DNA from: Oscillospiraceae bacterium
GTDB taxonomy: Bacteria; Bacillota; Clostridia; Oscillospirales; JAAYXM01
Assembly (NCBI GenBank): GCA_017409405.1
Contig: JAFQSU010000078.1
Span: 1-64,000 of the forward strand
Direction: 5' to 3'
Length of the DNA stretch: 64,000 nt
The first letter of the stretch is position 1; every line of letters begins with the position of its first letter. Under the pieces are notes generated by a model, which saw nothing but the letters and a program-made list of their open reading frames with translations, ran no database searches and was not told the DNA's origin. This document shows, in pieces, positions 3,125-53,222 of the stretch. A program made the translations under genes and the position numbers.

Positions 3125-3751
3125 TTATTTTGATATTTCGTAACACAGAATTTTAAGACTGTCTGCAAAGTGAACGTTTTCTATCGAAACGCCGAGCTCT
3201 TCCTCACTGAGATCGACATTTGTGAAGTTCCATATACCGCGCACGCCCATATCGGCAACCTTGCGTGCCATATCACGGGCAAGCTCACGCGGCATGGTAA
3301 GGATTGCAACATCAAACGGAGCTTCCTCAAAATAGCTTTCAAGCTCTTTGATATCGCGTATGTAAACATCGCCTATTTTAGTTCCTATAAGCTCGGGGTT
3401 TGCGTCGAAGGCAACTGTAAGCTCAAAGCCACAGGTTGCAAAGCGGAAGTTGTTGACAAGCGCATGACCGAGATGACCGACACCGATAATCGCTGCGGAG
3501 TGGGTTTTATCAACGCCGATTATTGATGCAATCTCTGCCAGAAGACTTTCGACATTATATCCGTACCCCTGCTGACCGAAGCCGCCGAAGCAGCTGAAGT
3601 CCTGACGCACCTGTGATGCGGTAAAGCCGAGATTATGGGCAAGAACGCTTGATGACACTCTGCCGACTCCGTTTCTCTGAAGCTCTTTTAAGCATCTGTG
3701 ATATTTAGGTAATCTGCGAATAACTGACGGCGAAATATATCTCTCGCTCAT
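3125..3751 (-). CDS. rex: Redox-sensing transcriptional repressor Rex
   Basis: 208 residues, full length. It has an N-terminal winged helix (about 1-80, with the characteristic DFSCFGGFGQQGYGY turn) and a Rossmann domain with GVGHLGHA (about residue 95). Rex binds DNA when NADH is low and leaves it when NADH rises, controlling fermentation and respiration genes. It is placed between a dehydrogenase gene and an SLH gene in one leftward unit. In Bacillus subtilis rex also lies a few genes from tsaD (gcp), as here. I did not find a clear Rex operator (TTGTTAAN4TTAACAA type) upstream of the operon. Confidence 0.95.
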   Translation of the reverse strand: MSERYISPSVIRRLPKYHRCLKELQRNGVGRVSSSVLAHNLGFTASQVRQDFSCFGGFGQQGYGYNVESLLAEIASIIGVDKTHSAAIIGVGHLGHALVNNFRFATCGFELTVAFDANPELIGTKIGDVYIRDIKELESYFEEAPFDVAILTMPRELARDMARKVADMGVRGIWNFTNVDLSEEELGVSIENVHFADSLKILCYEISK

Positions 3752-3765
3752 TTATCAAACACTCC

Positions 3766-4911
3766 CTATCTGTCAAGCTTTGACATTACATAATCAGCAA
3801 ACTCTGCACATGTTGCACCGTCCGCACGACCTGTTATGGTAAGCTTTTTCTCGTCATACATACATACATCAAGAGCGGAGGAAAGCTTTTTGGAAAGCTC
3901 AACCTCACCTATGTGCTCAAGAAGCATGACAGCCGCACGCAGCATGCTGCACGGATCGGCGTACTTATCACGTCCCTCGGCAACCATTCTGGGTGCAGAA
4001 CCGTGGATAGCTTCAAACATGGCATACTTCTTACCTACGTTTGCGCTACCGGCAGTACCGACACCGCCCTGGAACTCTGCAGCTTCATCGGTAAGAATAT
4101 CCCCGTAGAGGTTCGGCAGAACCATTACCTGGAAATCACGGCGGCGCTTTGTATCGACAAGCTTAGCTGTCATTATGTCTATGTACCAGTCATCAAATGA
4201 AATTTCAGGGTACTTTGCCGCAACCTTCTTACATGCATCGAGGAACTTTCCGTCTGTTGTCTTTATAACATTTGCCTTTGTAACTGCAGTGACACGGCTT
4301 CTACCCATGCGCTTTGCATATGAAAATGCAAGCTCTGCGATTCTGTCACAGCCCTGACTTGTGGCAATTGTAAAGTCTATTGCAAGGTCATCAGTAACAT
4401 TTACACCCATGCTTCCGACGGCATAGCCGCCCTCGGTATTTTCACGGAAGAACATCCAGTCGATACCCTCGCTCGGAACCTTAACAGGACGCATGTTGGC
4501 AAACAAATCAAGCTCTTTACGCATTGCAACATTGGCACTCTCAATATTCGGCCACGGATCGCCTGCGCGCGGAGTGGTTGTCGGGCCTTTGAGAATAACA
4601 TGGCATGCCTTGAGCTCTGCAAGAACATCATCGGGAATAGCCTTGTTTGCCGCAACTCTGTTTTCAATTGTGAGTCCGTCAATCACGCGAAACTCTATCT
4701 TTCCTGCAGCAACCTTGTCCTTTAAAAGATATTCAAGCACACGGTGAGCCTCTTTTGTTATGGCAGAGCCTATTCCGTCGCCGCCGCAGACACCGATAAT
4801 TATTTTCGGCAATGCCTTGTAATCGATAAACTCGTTTTCTTTCTTCATAGCCTCAACTCTTTTGAGCTGGAGCTCAATAATTTTTTCAAACTGCTTGATT
4901 GAACCTTCCAT
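3766..4911 (-). CDS. Isocitrate/isopropylmalate dehydrogenase family protein
   Basis: 381 residues from the preferred start. It is a beta-decarboxylating dehydrogenase: CGGDGIGSAIT near the N terminus, substrate-loop FFRENTEGGYAVG, and the metal/cofactor signature region around NLYGDILTDEAAEFQGG followed by GSANVG. The likely reaction is isocitrate to 2-oxoglutarate plus CO2, feeding glutamate synthesis. NAD versus NADP preference is not decided here, and 3-isopropylmalate is a less likely substrate because no leu genes are near. The ATG at 4911 is chosen over 4920 because AAGGAG directly abuts the upstream ATG. First gene of the operon with rex. Confidence 0.88.
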   Translation of the reverse strand: MEGSIKQFEKIIELQLKRVEAMKKENEFIDYKALPKIIIGVCGGDGIGSAITKEAHRVLEYLLKDKVAAGKIEFRVIDGLTIENRVAANKAIPDDVLAELKACHVILKGPTTTPRAGDPWPNIESANVAMRKELDLFANMRPVKVPSEGIDWMFFRENTEGGYAVGSMGVNVTDDLAIDFTIATSQGCDRIAELAFSYAKRMGRSRVTAVTKANVIKTTDGKFLDACKKVAAKYPEISFDDWYIDIMTAKLVDTKRRRDFQVMVLPNLYGDILTDEAAEFQGGVGTAGSANVGKKYAMFEAIHGSAPRMVAEGRDKYADPCSMLRAAVMLLEHIGEVELSKKLSSALDVCMYDEKKLTITGRADGATCAEFADYVMSKLDR

Positions 4912-4935
4912 TATGTACATCTCCTTTTGATAATA

Positions 4936-4964
4936 ATTTTAATATGTTTGAGCCGCTTTGTCAA
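4936..4964 (-). promoter_or_regulatory. Promoter of the dehydrogenase-rex-SLH operon
   Basis: Minus strand: perfect TTGACA (4959-4964), 17 bp, TAAAAT (4936-4941), ending about 25 bp before the start codon at 4911. Confidence 0.8.
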
Positions 4965-5438
4965 CTTTCAAGATTGCTATTTCCAACATTTTTATAAAAA
5001 CTTCGACTTTTAGCAAAAACTCTCCCCCGACAGAAAAGAGCAATTTATGAACAATATTACAATTAGTATTCACTGAAAAAATTGGTATTTTTTTACTGTT
5101 AAAATATACCAGTTAATGTAAAAAAATAGATATTTTATATTTCGTCATTTTTACAAAATGGTTTATATAATCTCACAAAACCCTTAGTATTTTGCCATTT
5201 ATCAGCCAAGTTCCCCTTGCTTTGAGTCTTGTTTGAAAACCTTTATTTTTATTTACATAACATTAAACTGTAATTTGTTTTACAAATAGTTATCCACATT
5301 TTCCACAGGTTTTTCCACAGGTTTGAACCTGTTGCAATACAAGGTCTTCAAATTATTTTGTAATTTTTTTACAGTGTTGCAAACGCGATTTTAACACTTT
5401 TTAAAACGGCATTTTAGTTTACATAACACCGTGTTTTT
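4965..5438. other. Long AT-rich intergenic region between tsaD and the rex operon
   Basis: About 470 bp without a plausible gene, rich in A/T runs. It holds the DnaA-box cluster at 5290-5319, a short palindrome CAGGTT-TG-AACCTG at 5318-5331, and the sequence TTTACATAACA twice (about 5255 and 5418). No clear terminator is visible after tsaD. Confidence 0.7.
5290..5319 (+). promoter_or_regulatory. Tandem DnaA-box cluster
   Basis: Perfect consensus TTATCCACA at 5290-5298, followed directly by TTTTCCACA at 5299-5307 and 5311-5319, all in the same orientation. In B. subtilis a DnaA-binding cluster is known, from ChIP work as I recall it, in the intergenic region beside gcp (tsaD). The same neighbourhood here suggests a conserved DnaA-titrating or regulatory site rather than the origin. 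Confidence 0.7.
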
Positions 5439-6452
5439 TTATCTTTGAAAATCAACCGGAAGTGTCGCTTTCGCATTCAGGTCGGTTTTTGCCGTATTTC
5501 CCTGCAAATACTCGAAATATGCCTGAGCTCCTATCATCGCACCGTTATCACCGCAGAGAGAAAGCGGTGGAAAAAAAAGCTCAATTCCGGAACTTTTTGC
5601 TTCCTTTTGAAGCCGTTTTCTGAGGAAAGAATTTGCCGCAACGCCACCTGCCACAGCAAGCTTTTTCCTTCCGGCAATATTTGTTGCCGCAATTGCACGC
5701 GGAACAACAGCATCACATACAGCCTCACAGAATGATGCCGCAAGCGATTCTCTGTCTATTTCTTCACCCTTCTGCTCTGCACGGTGTGCGAGATTGATAA
5801 CAGCGGTTTTAAGCCCCGAAAATGACATATCAAGCTCAGCACCGTCAATATGAGCACGGGGAAGCTTGTATTTCATCGCATCTCCCGTTTTTGCAAGCTC
5901 GTCAATTTTTGCACCTCCCGGATATCCCAGCCCGAGAACTCTCGCACATTTATCAAACGCCTCGCCTGCCGCATCGTCACGCGTCGAGCCTAAAATCTTA
6001 AAGCTTGTATAATCCCGGACATCCACAAACAGCGTATGTCCGCCGGAAGCCACAAGACACATAAACGGCGGTTCAAGCTCGGGGAACGCTATGTAATTTG
6101 CCGCTATATGTCCGCGTATGTGATGCACGGGAATAAGCGGCTTATCAAGCGCAAATGCAAGCGACTTTGCAAACCCGACACCGACAAGCAGTGCTCCGAT
6201 AAGCCCCGGGGCATACGTCACGGCTATTGCATCTACATCCGTCTTTTCAAGTCCTGCATCGGCAAACGCCTTCTCCGTCAGGGCAGAAATACACTCAATA
6301 TGCTTTCGTGATGCGATTTCAGGCACAACCCCTCCATACAGTGCATGCATATCTGCCTGCGAAAACACCGCATTGGAAAGAACTTTTCGCCCGTCCTCTA
6401 CTATAGCTACGGCAGTTTCATCACACGAACTTTCTATCGCAAGAATCTTCAC
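5439..6452 (-). CDS. tsaD: tRNA N6-adenosine threonylcarbamoyltransferase TsaD
   Basis: 337 residues, usual length. It is an ASKHA-fold ATPase with the metal-binding His-x3-His in VHHIRGH (about residues 110-116) and conserved SGGHT and GYPGG segments. It transfers the threonylcarbamoyl group from TC-AMP to A37 of ANN-decoding tRNAs, acting with TsaB and TsaE, which are not in the window. The start is GTG at 6452, overlapping the rimI stop by four bases (GTGA). Last gene of the polA-rimI-tsaD run. Confidence 0.95.
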   Translation of the reverse strand: MKILAIESSCDETAVAIVEDGRKVLSNAVFSQADMHALYGGVVPEIASRKHIECISALTEKAFADAGLEKTDVDAIAVTYAPGLIGALLVGVGFAKSLAFALDKPLIPVHHIRGHIAANYIAFPELEPPFMCLVASGGHTLFVDVRDYTSFKILGSTRDDAAGEAFDKCARVLGLGYPGGAKIDELAKTGDAMKYKLPRAHIDGAELDMSFSGLKTAVINLAHRAEQKGEEIDRESLAASFCEAVCDAVVPRAIAATNIAGRKKLAVAGGVAANSFLRKRLQKEAKSSGIELFFPPLSLCGDNGAMIGAQAYFEYLQGNTAKTDLNAKATLPVDFQR

Positions 6453-50383: not shown

Positions 50384-52603
50384 TTAATCAAAAAAGCTAC
50401 GAAGCTGATTCATGTTTTCCTTTTCGTTTTCGCGCATTTCAATGCAGGCACGCTTCATACTCTCGCCATATTCGCCGTCGCTCATGGTTCTGTCTATAAA
50501 ACCGCAGAGAGCATCCGCCGTGCAATCATCATACAGAACGCACATTTCTCTTCCTATATAATTCATAAACCCCGTGACCTTGTGGTCATAAGCTATGCCT
50601 ATTGTGGCAACTCCCTGCCCTGCACCGAAAACAAGCGCGTGCAGTCGCATTGCCATAATGACACGCATTTTTGCGAGGATTCCTATTACGGTATGAACGT
50701 CATATTCTCTGCGGATAATAACACACTGCGCCGAAATTGCATCGCTGACACGCTCCGCTATCGCAAGGTCCTTTTTTCTTTCCATCGGAATCAGCGTTAT
50801 TTTCAGCCCGTACTTTTCAGCCGCATAATCTGCCGCCCTTGCAATGTGCTCTATCTTTTTATCAATGTCCTTCCAGTTTCTTATCGCGAGACACAGATAA
50901 TCGGAATCCGCATCTATCCCCTCTGCCGCAAGAGCATCTGAAACCTCTCTGTCCTTTGCCGGAGTTATTCCGAGGGTGGGGTCAGCCGCAAGGCGCATGT
51001 TCGGTTTCTTTACTCCCATCGAAAGAAGCTCATTGTATGAATCCGGATCACGCAGGGTAATGCAGTCCGCAGTTTTATCAATGATCCGTGCCGCAAGCCT
51101 TCTGTTTATCTTCCGTCTTACGGGACCTATTCCGCAGCCGTACATCATGACTTTACAGCCGCACATACGGGCAGCAAGAAGCGTAAACAGATAAAAATAC
51201 AATGACCGGCTTGACGTCGAATCCTGAATAAGGCTTCCGCCGCCGTTAATATACAGATGCGAGCGTGCAAGCTCACGAAACATTCCGAAAACATTGAATG
51301 TGTATATTGAACGTACACGGTAACGAAGCTTTGTCTGTTCTGGATTTTTTGACATAACGCAAATCTTTGTGTCGTCACAAACCTCGGTGATTTCACGGAT
51401 AACAGCCTTCAGTATGGCATCATCGCCTGCATTGCCGCGACCGTAAGAGCCGCAGACGACCACACGTTTTTTCTTATCCGATGCGCCTTCGCACATTTTA
51501 AGTACCTTGCCGTAAATATCAAGCTGTGTGGAAACCATTGCGTCAAAGGAATACTTTTCGCTTGACTTTTCAAACAAGCGCTCTGCCATCTGACGGCGTG
51601 CATCAGGATTTTCGTAAAGATAGCGCAAATGCCCTGCAAGTGCGGAAACGTCCCCTACATCAAACAGCAGACCGTCAACTCCGTCATCTATTATCTCCGG
51701 CATTGCACCAACCGCGGTTGAGACCATGGTGCATTTTGCTCTTGCAGACTCAAGAATGCTGTACGGAAAACCTTCACTGACAGATGAAATCACACTTATA
51801 TCAACAGCGCCGAGGAAGGAATCCATATCGTCTATCCAGCCTGCAAACACCACACGGTCTCCTATGCCAAGCTCTGCAACAAGCTCACGGAGCATTTCCG
51901 CCTGCTCACCGTCTCCGCCGAGGACGAGATACATCTCGGGACAGACCTTTGCGATTTGCGCCACTGCGCGGACTGCCGTGGCTATATCCTTTACCGGATG
52001 AAAACGGGCGGCAATGCCACATACAACAGTGTTCTCTGTAGATTTTATGCCAAGACGGGACAAATACTCTTCGCGGGAAATGCGAGGTGTTATGTCCAGG
52101 TCAAAATCGATTCCGTTGTTTAATGTGAAAAGCTTGTACGGGTCAAAGCCTCGCTCTGTAAGAAGCTCGGAAAATGCGCGTGTAACCCCGATATAACCGT
52201 CAAGAAAGCGAAGTGCGACGGTATTGAGAAGTCCGTTTGTGAGAGCCTTTAAGATGCTTCCCATATAATCGAGCCGATAATCGCTGTGGACAGTAGTTAT
52301 AACAGGGACCTTTACAAATCGTTTTATTGCCGATGCCATTACGTTTGCCTTTGCACCGTGGCAATGAACAATATCATACCCGTCACACAAAATTTCTTTA
52401 ATTTCAAGAAGGTCCTTTAACGGATTTCTGTTATGCACAACACGGGTGTTTATTCCCATTTTTCTGGCATCGTCGGCGAATTCTCCTTCACGGAGACTGA
52501 CAAGCAACACCTCGTTGCTCTCGGAAAGCTTGGAAACAAGCGAAAGCACGTGCGTTTTTGCGCCGCCGACATCTCCGCCGCCTATCATGTGAACAATTTT
52601 CAT
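50384..52603 (-). CDS. Fusion of GT4 glycosyltransferase and CsaB-type polysaccharide pyruvyl transferase
   Basis: 739 residues. The N-terminal GT4 (about 1-370) has GGGDVGGAKTHVLSLV, HCHGAKAN and the donor motif SEGFPYSILESARA. The C-terminal half (about 385-739) is a complete CsaB domain: VVCGSYGRGNAGDDAIL, INGGGSLIQDSTS, MYGCGIGPV and AMRLHALVFGAGQGV. CsaB adds ketal pyruvate to secondary wall polymers, creating the ligand for SLH domains; an SLH protein is encoded at 1966-3108. The start ATG 52603 follows AGGAG; an upstream in-frame ATG at 52633 is less likely. Confidence 0.88.
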   Translation of the reverse strand: MKIVHMIGGGDVGGAKTHVLSLVSKLSESNEVLLVSLREGEFADDARKMGINTRVVHNRNPLKDLLEIKEILCDGYDIVHCHGAKANVMASAIKRFVKVPVITTVHSDYRLDYMGSILKALTNGLLNTVALRFLDGYIGVTRAFSELLTERGFDPYKLFTLNNGIDFDLDITPRISREEYLSRLGIKSTENTVVCGIAARFHPVKDIATAVRAVAQIAKVCPEMYLVLGGDGEQAEMLRELVAELGIGDRVVFAGWIDDMDSFLGAVDISVISSVSEGFPYSILESARAKCTMVSTAVGAMPEIIDDGVDGLLFDVGDVSALAGHLRYLYENPDARRQMAERLFEKSSEKYSFDAMVSTQLDIYGKVLKMCEGASDKKKRVVVCGSYGRGNAGDDAILKAVIREITEVCDDTKICVMSKNPEQTKLRYRVRSIYTFNVFGMFRELARSHLYINGGGSLIQDSTSSRSLYFYLFTLLAARMCGCKVMMYGCGIGPVRRKINRRLAARIIDKTADCITLRDPDSYNELLSMGVKKPNMRLAADPTLGITPAKDREVSDALAAEGIDADSDYLCLAIRNWKDIDKKIEHIARAADYAAEKYGLKITLIPMERKKDLAIAERVSDAISAQCVIIRREYDVHTVIGILAKMRVIMAMRLHALVFGAGQGVATIGIAYDHKVTGFMNYIGREMCVLYDDCTADALCGFIDRTMSDGEYGESMKRACIEMRENEKENMNQLRSFFD

Positions 52604-52640
52604 ATTTACTCCTGATGCAAAAATTTTTAGCAAAAAACAG

Positions 52641-52688
52641 TTGTTATATTTTTACACATATTATATAATAGAATAAGTAATCGGTCAA
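52641..52688. promoter_or_regulatory. Overlapping divergent promoters of GT4-csaB and DUF4330 genes
   Basis: Minus: TTGACC (52683-52688), 17 bp, TATAAT (52660-52665). Plus: TTGTTA (52641-52646), 17 bp, TATAAT (52664-52669). The two -10 boxes overlap in ATTATATAAT, so polymerase can open only one at a time. Confidence 0.65.
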
Positions 52689-52718
52689 GCATACATACAA
52701 CGAAAGGAATTTAAAACC

Positions 52719-53222
52719 ATGAAAATTGTAAATGAAAAGGGAAAACTCTTCGGAATCATCAATGTCATCGACCTTGTGATTCTTCTCGTCATCGCTCTCG
52801 TTGCCGTTGCAGCGGTATACAAGTTTGCGGCTCCTGCGGCAAGCAACGTAATCACTCCGAAAGCAGATATGACTGTCACCATGCGCGTCCGAGGTGCGAT
52901 GGACTATCTTGAAAATGAGGTGCTTAAGCTTGAGCCGGGCGCAAGGCTTGTAGCAGGCAGTGACTACATCGCAGATGCAAAGGTTGTTTCGGTCGAGAGC
53001 GTTCCTTATCTCTCCGCAGGCACAACCGATGAGGGTAAGTTTGTCACATCCGAAGATCCGCAGAAGTGCGACCTCATTATCACCGTAAAATCCAAACAGT
53101 CAAAGACCGACCCGATTCTCAAAATCGGAACTCAGGAAGTCCGTATAGGTCGTGGCTTTATATTCAAGACCCAGACCGTAGAAGTTAATGCAATTATTGA
53201 AACGGTGGAATTTGATGGATAA
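52719..53222 (+). CDS. DUF4330 domain protein
   Basis: 167 residues. One N-terminal membrane span (about 14-38; IINVIDLVILLVIALVAVAAVY), then an extracytoplasmic beta-rich domain with repeated VRI/VTVKSKQ strands. DUF4330 has no known role but is repeatedly found next to csaB and O-antigen-ligase-like genes in Clostridia, as here, suggesting a part in wall-polymer assembly. It overlaps the next gene by eight bases. Confidence 0.85.
   Translation: MKIVNEKGKLFGIINVIDLVILLVIALVAVAAVYKFAAPAASNVITPKADMTVTMRVRGAMDYLENEVLKLEPGARLVAGSDYIADAKVVSVESVPYLSAGTTDEGKFVTSEDPQKCDLIITVKSKQSKTDPILKIGTQEVRIGRGFIFKTQTVEVNAIIETVEFDG

Follow-up and report, generated by a model that had tools for sequence, protein, structure and literature searches.

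A DnaA-box cluster of fixed geometry at the 3' end of tsaD in an Oscillospiraceae bacterium: a putative titration or timing site outside oriC

In Bacillus subtilis the gcp-ydiF region binds DnaA with high affinity and with a preference for ATP (PMC4447404), and deletion of six DnaA-box clusters lying outside oriC leads to early initiation (PMC5295017; PMC13220808), strongly so only when all six are removed (PMC5295017). A DnaA-box cluster at tsaD (gcp) is thus, as a kind, already known from that organism. Here we describe one in the window, by which we mean the whole 64,000-nt stretch of Oscillospiraceae DNA analysed. The gap between the end of tsaD at 5439 and the start of a dehydrogenase gene at 4920 is AT-rich and measures 518 bp, rather than the 470 bp given in the initial annotation. 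It holds the three directly repeated DnaA boxes that this annotation placed between tsaD and the rex operon, found at 5290, 5299 and 5311, all on the + strand. The features of the locus are listed below; the identities of TsaD, Rex and the Iso_dh-family dehydrogenase were assigned by Pfam and NCBIfam.

DnaA box 1, 5290..5298, + strand: TTATCCACA; conserved in the family genomes
DnaA box 2, 5299..5307, + strand: TTTTCCACA; abuts box 1; conserved in the family genomes
DnaA box 3, 5311..5319, + strand: TTTTCCACA; 3 bp past box 2; conserved in the family genomes
Left frame motif, 5252..5260, + strand: TTTACATAA; 38 bp ahead of box 1
Right frame motif, 5416..5426, + strand: AGTTTACATAA, the reverse complement of the XerD arm TTATGTAAACT (comparison: PMC2731167)
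tsaD (gcp), 5439..6452, - strand: TIGR03723 equivalog, 425.7 bits; 3' end towards the element
Isocitrate/isopropylmalate dehydrogenase family gene (Iso_dh), 3766..4920, - strand: PF00180; neighbour
rex, 3125-3751: after the dehydrogenase gene
Promoter-like TTGACA-17-TAAAAT of the dehydrogenase gene, 4964..4936

The three boxes are packed within 30 bp, outside oriC and on the 3' side of tsaD. The cluster beside B. subtilis gcp, which the initial annotation had correctly named, resembles them in gene, in side, in having several boxes and in being non-coding and outside oriC (PMC4447404). It differs in that 10 sites are mapped there, whereas here three strong boxes are accompanied by a family-specific pair of frame motifs. 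On the best reading, the tsaD element corresponds in position to gcp-ydiF. The 3 bp between boxes 2 and 3 are also one of the two spacings preferred by the E. coli 'double DnaA box' (PMC11317965), but the direct contact of boxes 1 and 2 (0 bp) is not among the preferred E. coli spacings. Single boxes of the form TTWTCCACA are common enough in the window (4 against 1.46 expected) that the case depends on arrangement and conservation. The initial annotation noted neither the fixed spacing of the boxes nor the pair of motifs that flank them.

We analysed conservation within the family in a set of nine genomes, searching for box pairs and then comparing the loci at the matches. The element is kept in all nine, and in eight of them the boxes precede the dehydrogenase gene. 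For all five genus members the triple sits between tsaD and the dehydrogenase gene. One genome (G001) has it 3' of tsaD next to another neighbour, without the dehydrogenase gene; two (G007 and G008) have it upstream of the dehydrogenase gene, with tsaD not adjacent; and in G002 a weaker triple, TTATGCACA-TTTTCCACA-gag-TTTTTCACA, occupies the same locus. Identity between family genomes is 0.90 in the boxes and 0.44-0.46 in the spacers, and despite this divergence the spacer lengths are constant within 1-3 bp. The palindrome CAGGTT-TG-AACCTG, noted earlier at the end of the boxes, is present at 5318-5331 but absent from the aligned relatives; because it is not conserved, it falls outside the conserved element and is ruled out as one of its components. 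A DnaA C-terminal domain was found in 7/8 family relatives, and none was detectable in the window's own assembly, which is 88% complete. Between the boxes and the dehydrogenase gene, an AT-rich stretch at window 5055-5075 (approximately TATTACAATTWGTATT) is conserved in most family genomes and is possibly a separate operator.

Across the class, we scanned 391 genomes with the pattern TTNTCCACA-NNNTCCACA-NNN-TTNTCCACA, blind to gene context. The triple, with starts at 0/9/21, occurs at 33 places, and the reversed control gave 0. Specifically, 24 of the 33 stand at the 3' end of tsaD, every one on the strand opposite tsaD; of the remaining nine, one is at a contig end, four precede a ribosome-hibernation-factor-like gene in a single family, and four lie elsewhere. 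Given the empty control and this concentration at one gene end on one strand, the arrangement is not due to chance. The same location emerges when loci are chosen by protein only: at 80 named tsaD loci, the first kb past the end of tsaD, 75.5 kb in all, holds 61 strict boxes TTNTCCACA, and the 527 kb elsewhere hold 38, an 11-fold difference in density. With the 24 class triples, this bears out the proposal in the initial annotation that the location is conserved.

The spacing itself was assessed at 75 of the named loci (Clostridia, Negativicutes, Bacilli), counting same-strand pairs at 9, 12 or 21 bp with one mismatch per box. Such pairs were found downstream of tsaD at 15/75 loci, upstream at 1/70, further downstream at 0/60 and inside tsaD at 1/75, and in shuffled sequences the count was 0. 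The other 60 of the 75 lack the spacing, so the site must often have been lost or moved. Several loci carry extra boxes at about +63 and +72, and the full recurring grid is 0, 9, 21, 62-64, 72-73 (for example 0/9/21/64/73 at L082 and 0/9/21/64 at L075 and L077). It is seen in Clostridia, at one Negativicutes locus (L110) and partly in Brevibacillus and Kroppenstedtia. Throughout, the element lies in non-coding DNA and the neighbour other than tsaD varies between genomes; in G162, for instance, a different gene lies past the site.

Triples of this kind also occur at other genes. In four members of the genus, mraZ is preceded by a second DnaA-type triple that shares the 0/9/21 spacing (L002, L007, L019, L020; for example TTATCCACA-GTTTCCAAA-gaa-TTATCCACA), a possible tie between DnaA and the division-gene cluster. 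Four genomes of family f31 (L184, L192, L193, L194, with L193 corresponding to site L159) have a triple ∼100 bp upstream of an hpf-like gene (ribosome hibernation factor).

Within the family the boxes are framed. TTTACRTAA is found at -38/-39 from box 1 in all nine genomes (in G002 as TTTTACATAA), and TTTACATAA at +128 to +131 in all nine. The left motif recurs at the same distance in G162 and G075, and variants with an ACATAA core are seen at +124/125 in another family (L131-L134) and in L041, and at +112 in G162, but the frame motif is missing at most tsaD clusters outside the family. It is likewise absent at the mraZ triples, at the G002 dnaX site and in the G005 dnaA-dnaN region. The window's 1.94-Mb genome holds 7 copies of GTTTACRTAA, the six besides this site all within ORFs, and summed over the family genomes there are 113 sites against 140 in the reversed control, i.e., no genome-wide enrichment.

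The XerD arm TTATGTAAACT, of which the right motif is the reverse complement, is present in listed dif sites (PMC2731167), and as a lead we consider the frame motif a putative XerD half-site. The element is not a 28-bp dif with XerC and XerD arms: only the XerD-like half is found on each side, and the two half-sites, neither with an adjoining XerC arm, stand 166 bp apart. No unambiguous chromosomal dif was located in the family, and matches to a dif-like pattern at ≤3 mismatches were no commoner than in the reversed control. Among the family genomes, 28-bp dif-like dyads with this arm were found only in G008. These dyads have the form GTTTACATAA-N6-TAYGGTAAAC (L240:1020-1045 and 1635-1660; also L239, L241); two of them adjoin duplicated barstar-like genes, resembling Xer-mobile pdif modules. 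Elsewhere, in members of two genera, a ProC/ComER-like gene is preceded, at a distance of 116 bp, by a tandem GTTTACATAA-N4-GTTTACATAA (L225:1005-1028 in G002 and L226:1061-1084 in G007), which suggests a regulator that binds the frame motif as direct repeats.

The explanation that we favour, and regard as probable, is a fixed-geometry DnaA assembly outside oriC, the counterpart of B. subtilis gcp-ydiF, where DnaA is held or inactivated and initiation is thereby restrained. Binding of DnaA, probably ATP-DnaA, to the tandem boxes would be cooperative and head to tail and would form an ordered oligomer. At 10.5 bp per turn, boxes at 0, 21 and 63 would be two and six helical turns apart and so lie on one face of the helix, a prediction from spacing that supports an ordered head-to-tail oligomer by which DnaA would be withheld or inactivated once initiation has occurred. 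By holding DnaA or promoting its inactivation, the complex would leave less of it for oriC and delay re-initiation, and if the element is replicated after oriC, the number of sinks would track initiation. The frame motifs are probably bound by an architectural partner that fixes or delimits the complex, with XerD as the leading candidate. A putative titration or timing function, as first proposed for the cluster, fits these observations. Against this explanation count the DnaA C-terminal domain undetected in the window's own assembly, the majority of sampled tsaD loci that lack the spacing, and the fact that simple titration would not need a fixed one.

Alternatively, the element could be of the datA or DARS type, in which a fixed-geometry DnaA complex and its partners would alter the nucleotide state of DnaA, by hydrolysis or exchange, and not merely hold it. 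Such an element would account for the conserved box geometry and the constant spacing of the partner motif in the family, and it has parallels in E. coli: DARS1 and DARS2 have a three-box core of fixed spacing, and in DARS2 the distances between the core and the IHF and Fis sites are conserved (PMC5742627). However, box I of DARS is inverted relative to II and III whereas all boxes here are on the + strand, so the cluster does not have the DARS core. The site is like datA in being a non-coding DnaA-box cluster outside oriC and downstream of genes, but datA requires IHF and its box pattern is not the same. B. subtilis has no IHF and is not known to possess a nucleotide-switching locus (PMC13220808). 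On balance we think a nucleotide-switching role unlikely. More unlikely still is an extended form, an ancient DARS/datA-like machine at tsaD in Gram-positives, whose fixed-geometry DnaA oligomer (0/9/21/63/72), framed in the family of nine genomes by partner half-sites (perhaps for the terminus recombinase XerD), would tie the start of replication to a chromosome-resolution or SMC-unloading protein.

We also give little credence to a regulatory role, in which DnaA would control transcription of the dehydrogenase-rex operon or read-through from tsaD and so couple redox metabolism to replication. DnaA does control transcription at some sites (PMC4447404), and boxes that precede the dehydrogenase gene, as they do in eight of the nine family genomes, would suit such a role. 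But the promoter-like site at 4964..4936 is ∼325 bp from the boxes, the downstream gene differs in G001 and in other families, and the B. subtilis site is flanked by two 3' ends. The distance to the promoter-like site and the variable neighbour make an operator role unlikely, the neighbours in G001, G007, G008 and G162 speak against a gene-specific operator, and the dehydrogenase gene is probably outside the DnaA element. That the boxes are chance matches, or bind some other protein instead of DnaA, is very improbable: single boxes do arise by chance and for this lineage they are predicted from sequence, but the class scan gave 33 triples to 0 in the control, 24 of them at one gene, and in B. 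subtilis DnaA has been shown to bind at the corresponding place.

An AT-rich gap carrying DnaA boxes might suggest oriC or a secondary origin, but this is scarcely credible, since GC skew shows no inversion and dnaA lies elsewhere in relatives, and identity with oriC is ruled out, as the initial annotation had anticipated. Specifically, the skew keeps the same sign on both sides of the site in the window and in G003-G006, the sole exception being one near-zero 2.5-kb bin in G003. There is no dnaA/dnaN neighbourhood at the tsaD site; in relatives dnaA is on other contigs, and in G005 it stands beside dnaN with its own boxes. In G581, a single contig of 3.3 Mb, the tsaD triple at 608,621 and dnaA at 949,227 are 341 kb apart. 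Far from the element lies a local strand switch, at window ∼52600-53200: most genes before it are on the minus strand and most after it on the plus strand, and the GC skew, negative at first, rises to near zero.

In the literature that we covered, we found no description of so deep a conservation, in position and strand as well as in box geometry, or of the family's frame motif at constant distance, and a search on conserved Firmicute clusters returned nothing relevant. In B. subtilis the effect of the clusters outside oriC, strong only once all six are deleted, is read as loose titration. That the box geometry stays fixed from Clostridia to Negativicutes and Bacilli implies an organised complex rather than a passive sponge, and suggests that the site is an ancient, structured control point for chromosome copying. 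In the one family, the frame motif at constant distance hints at a partner protein, and if that partner is XerD, the control of initiation and the termination of the chromosome would converge on one site.
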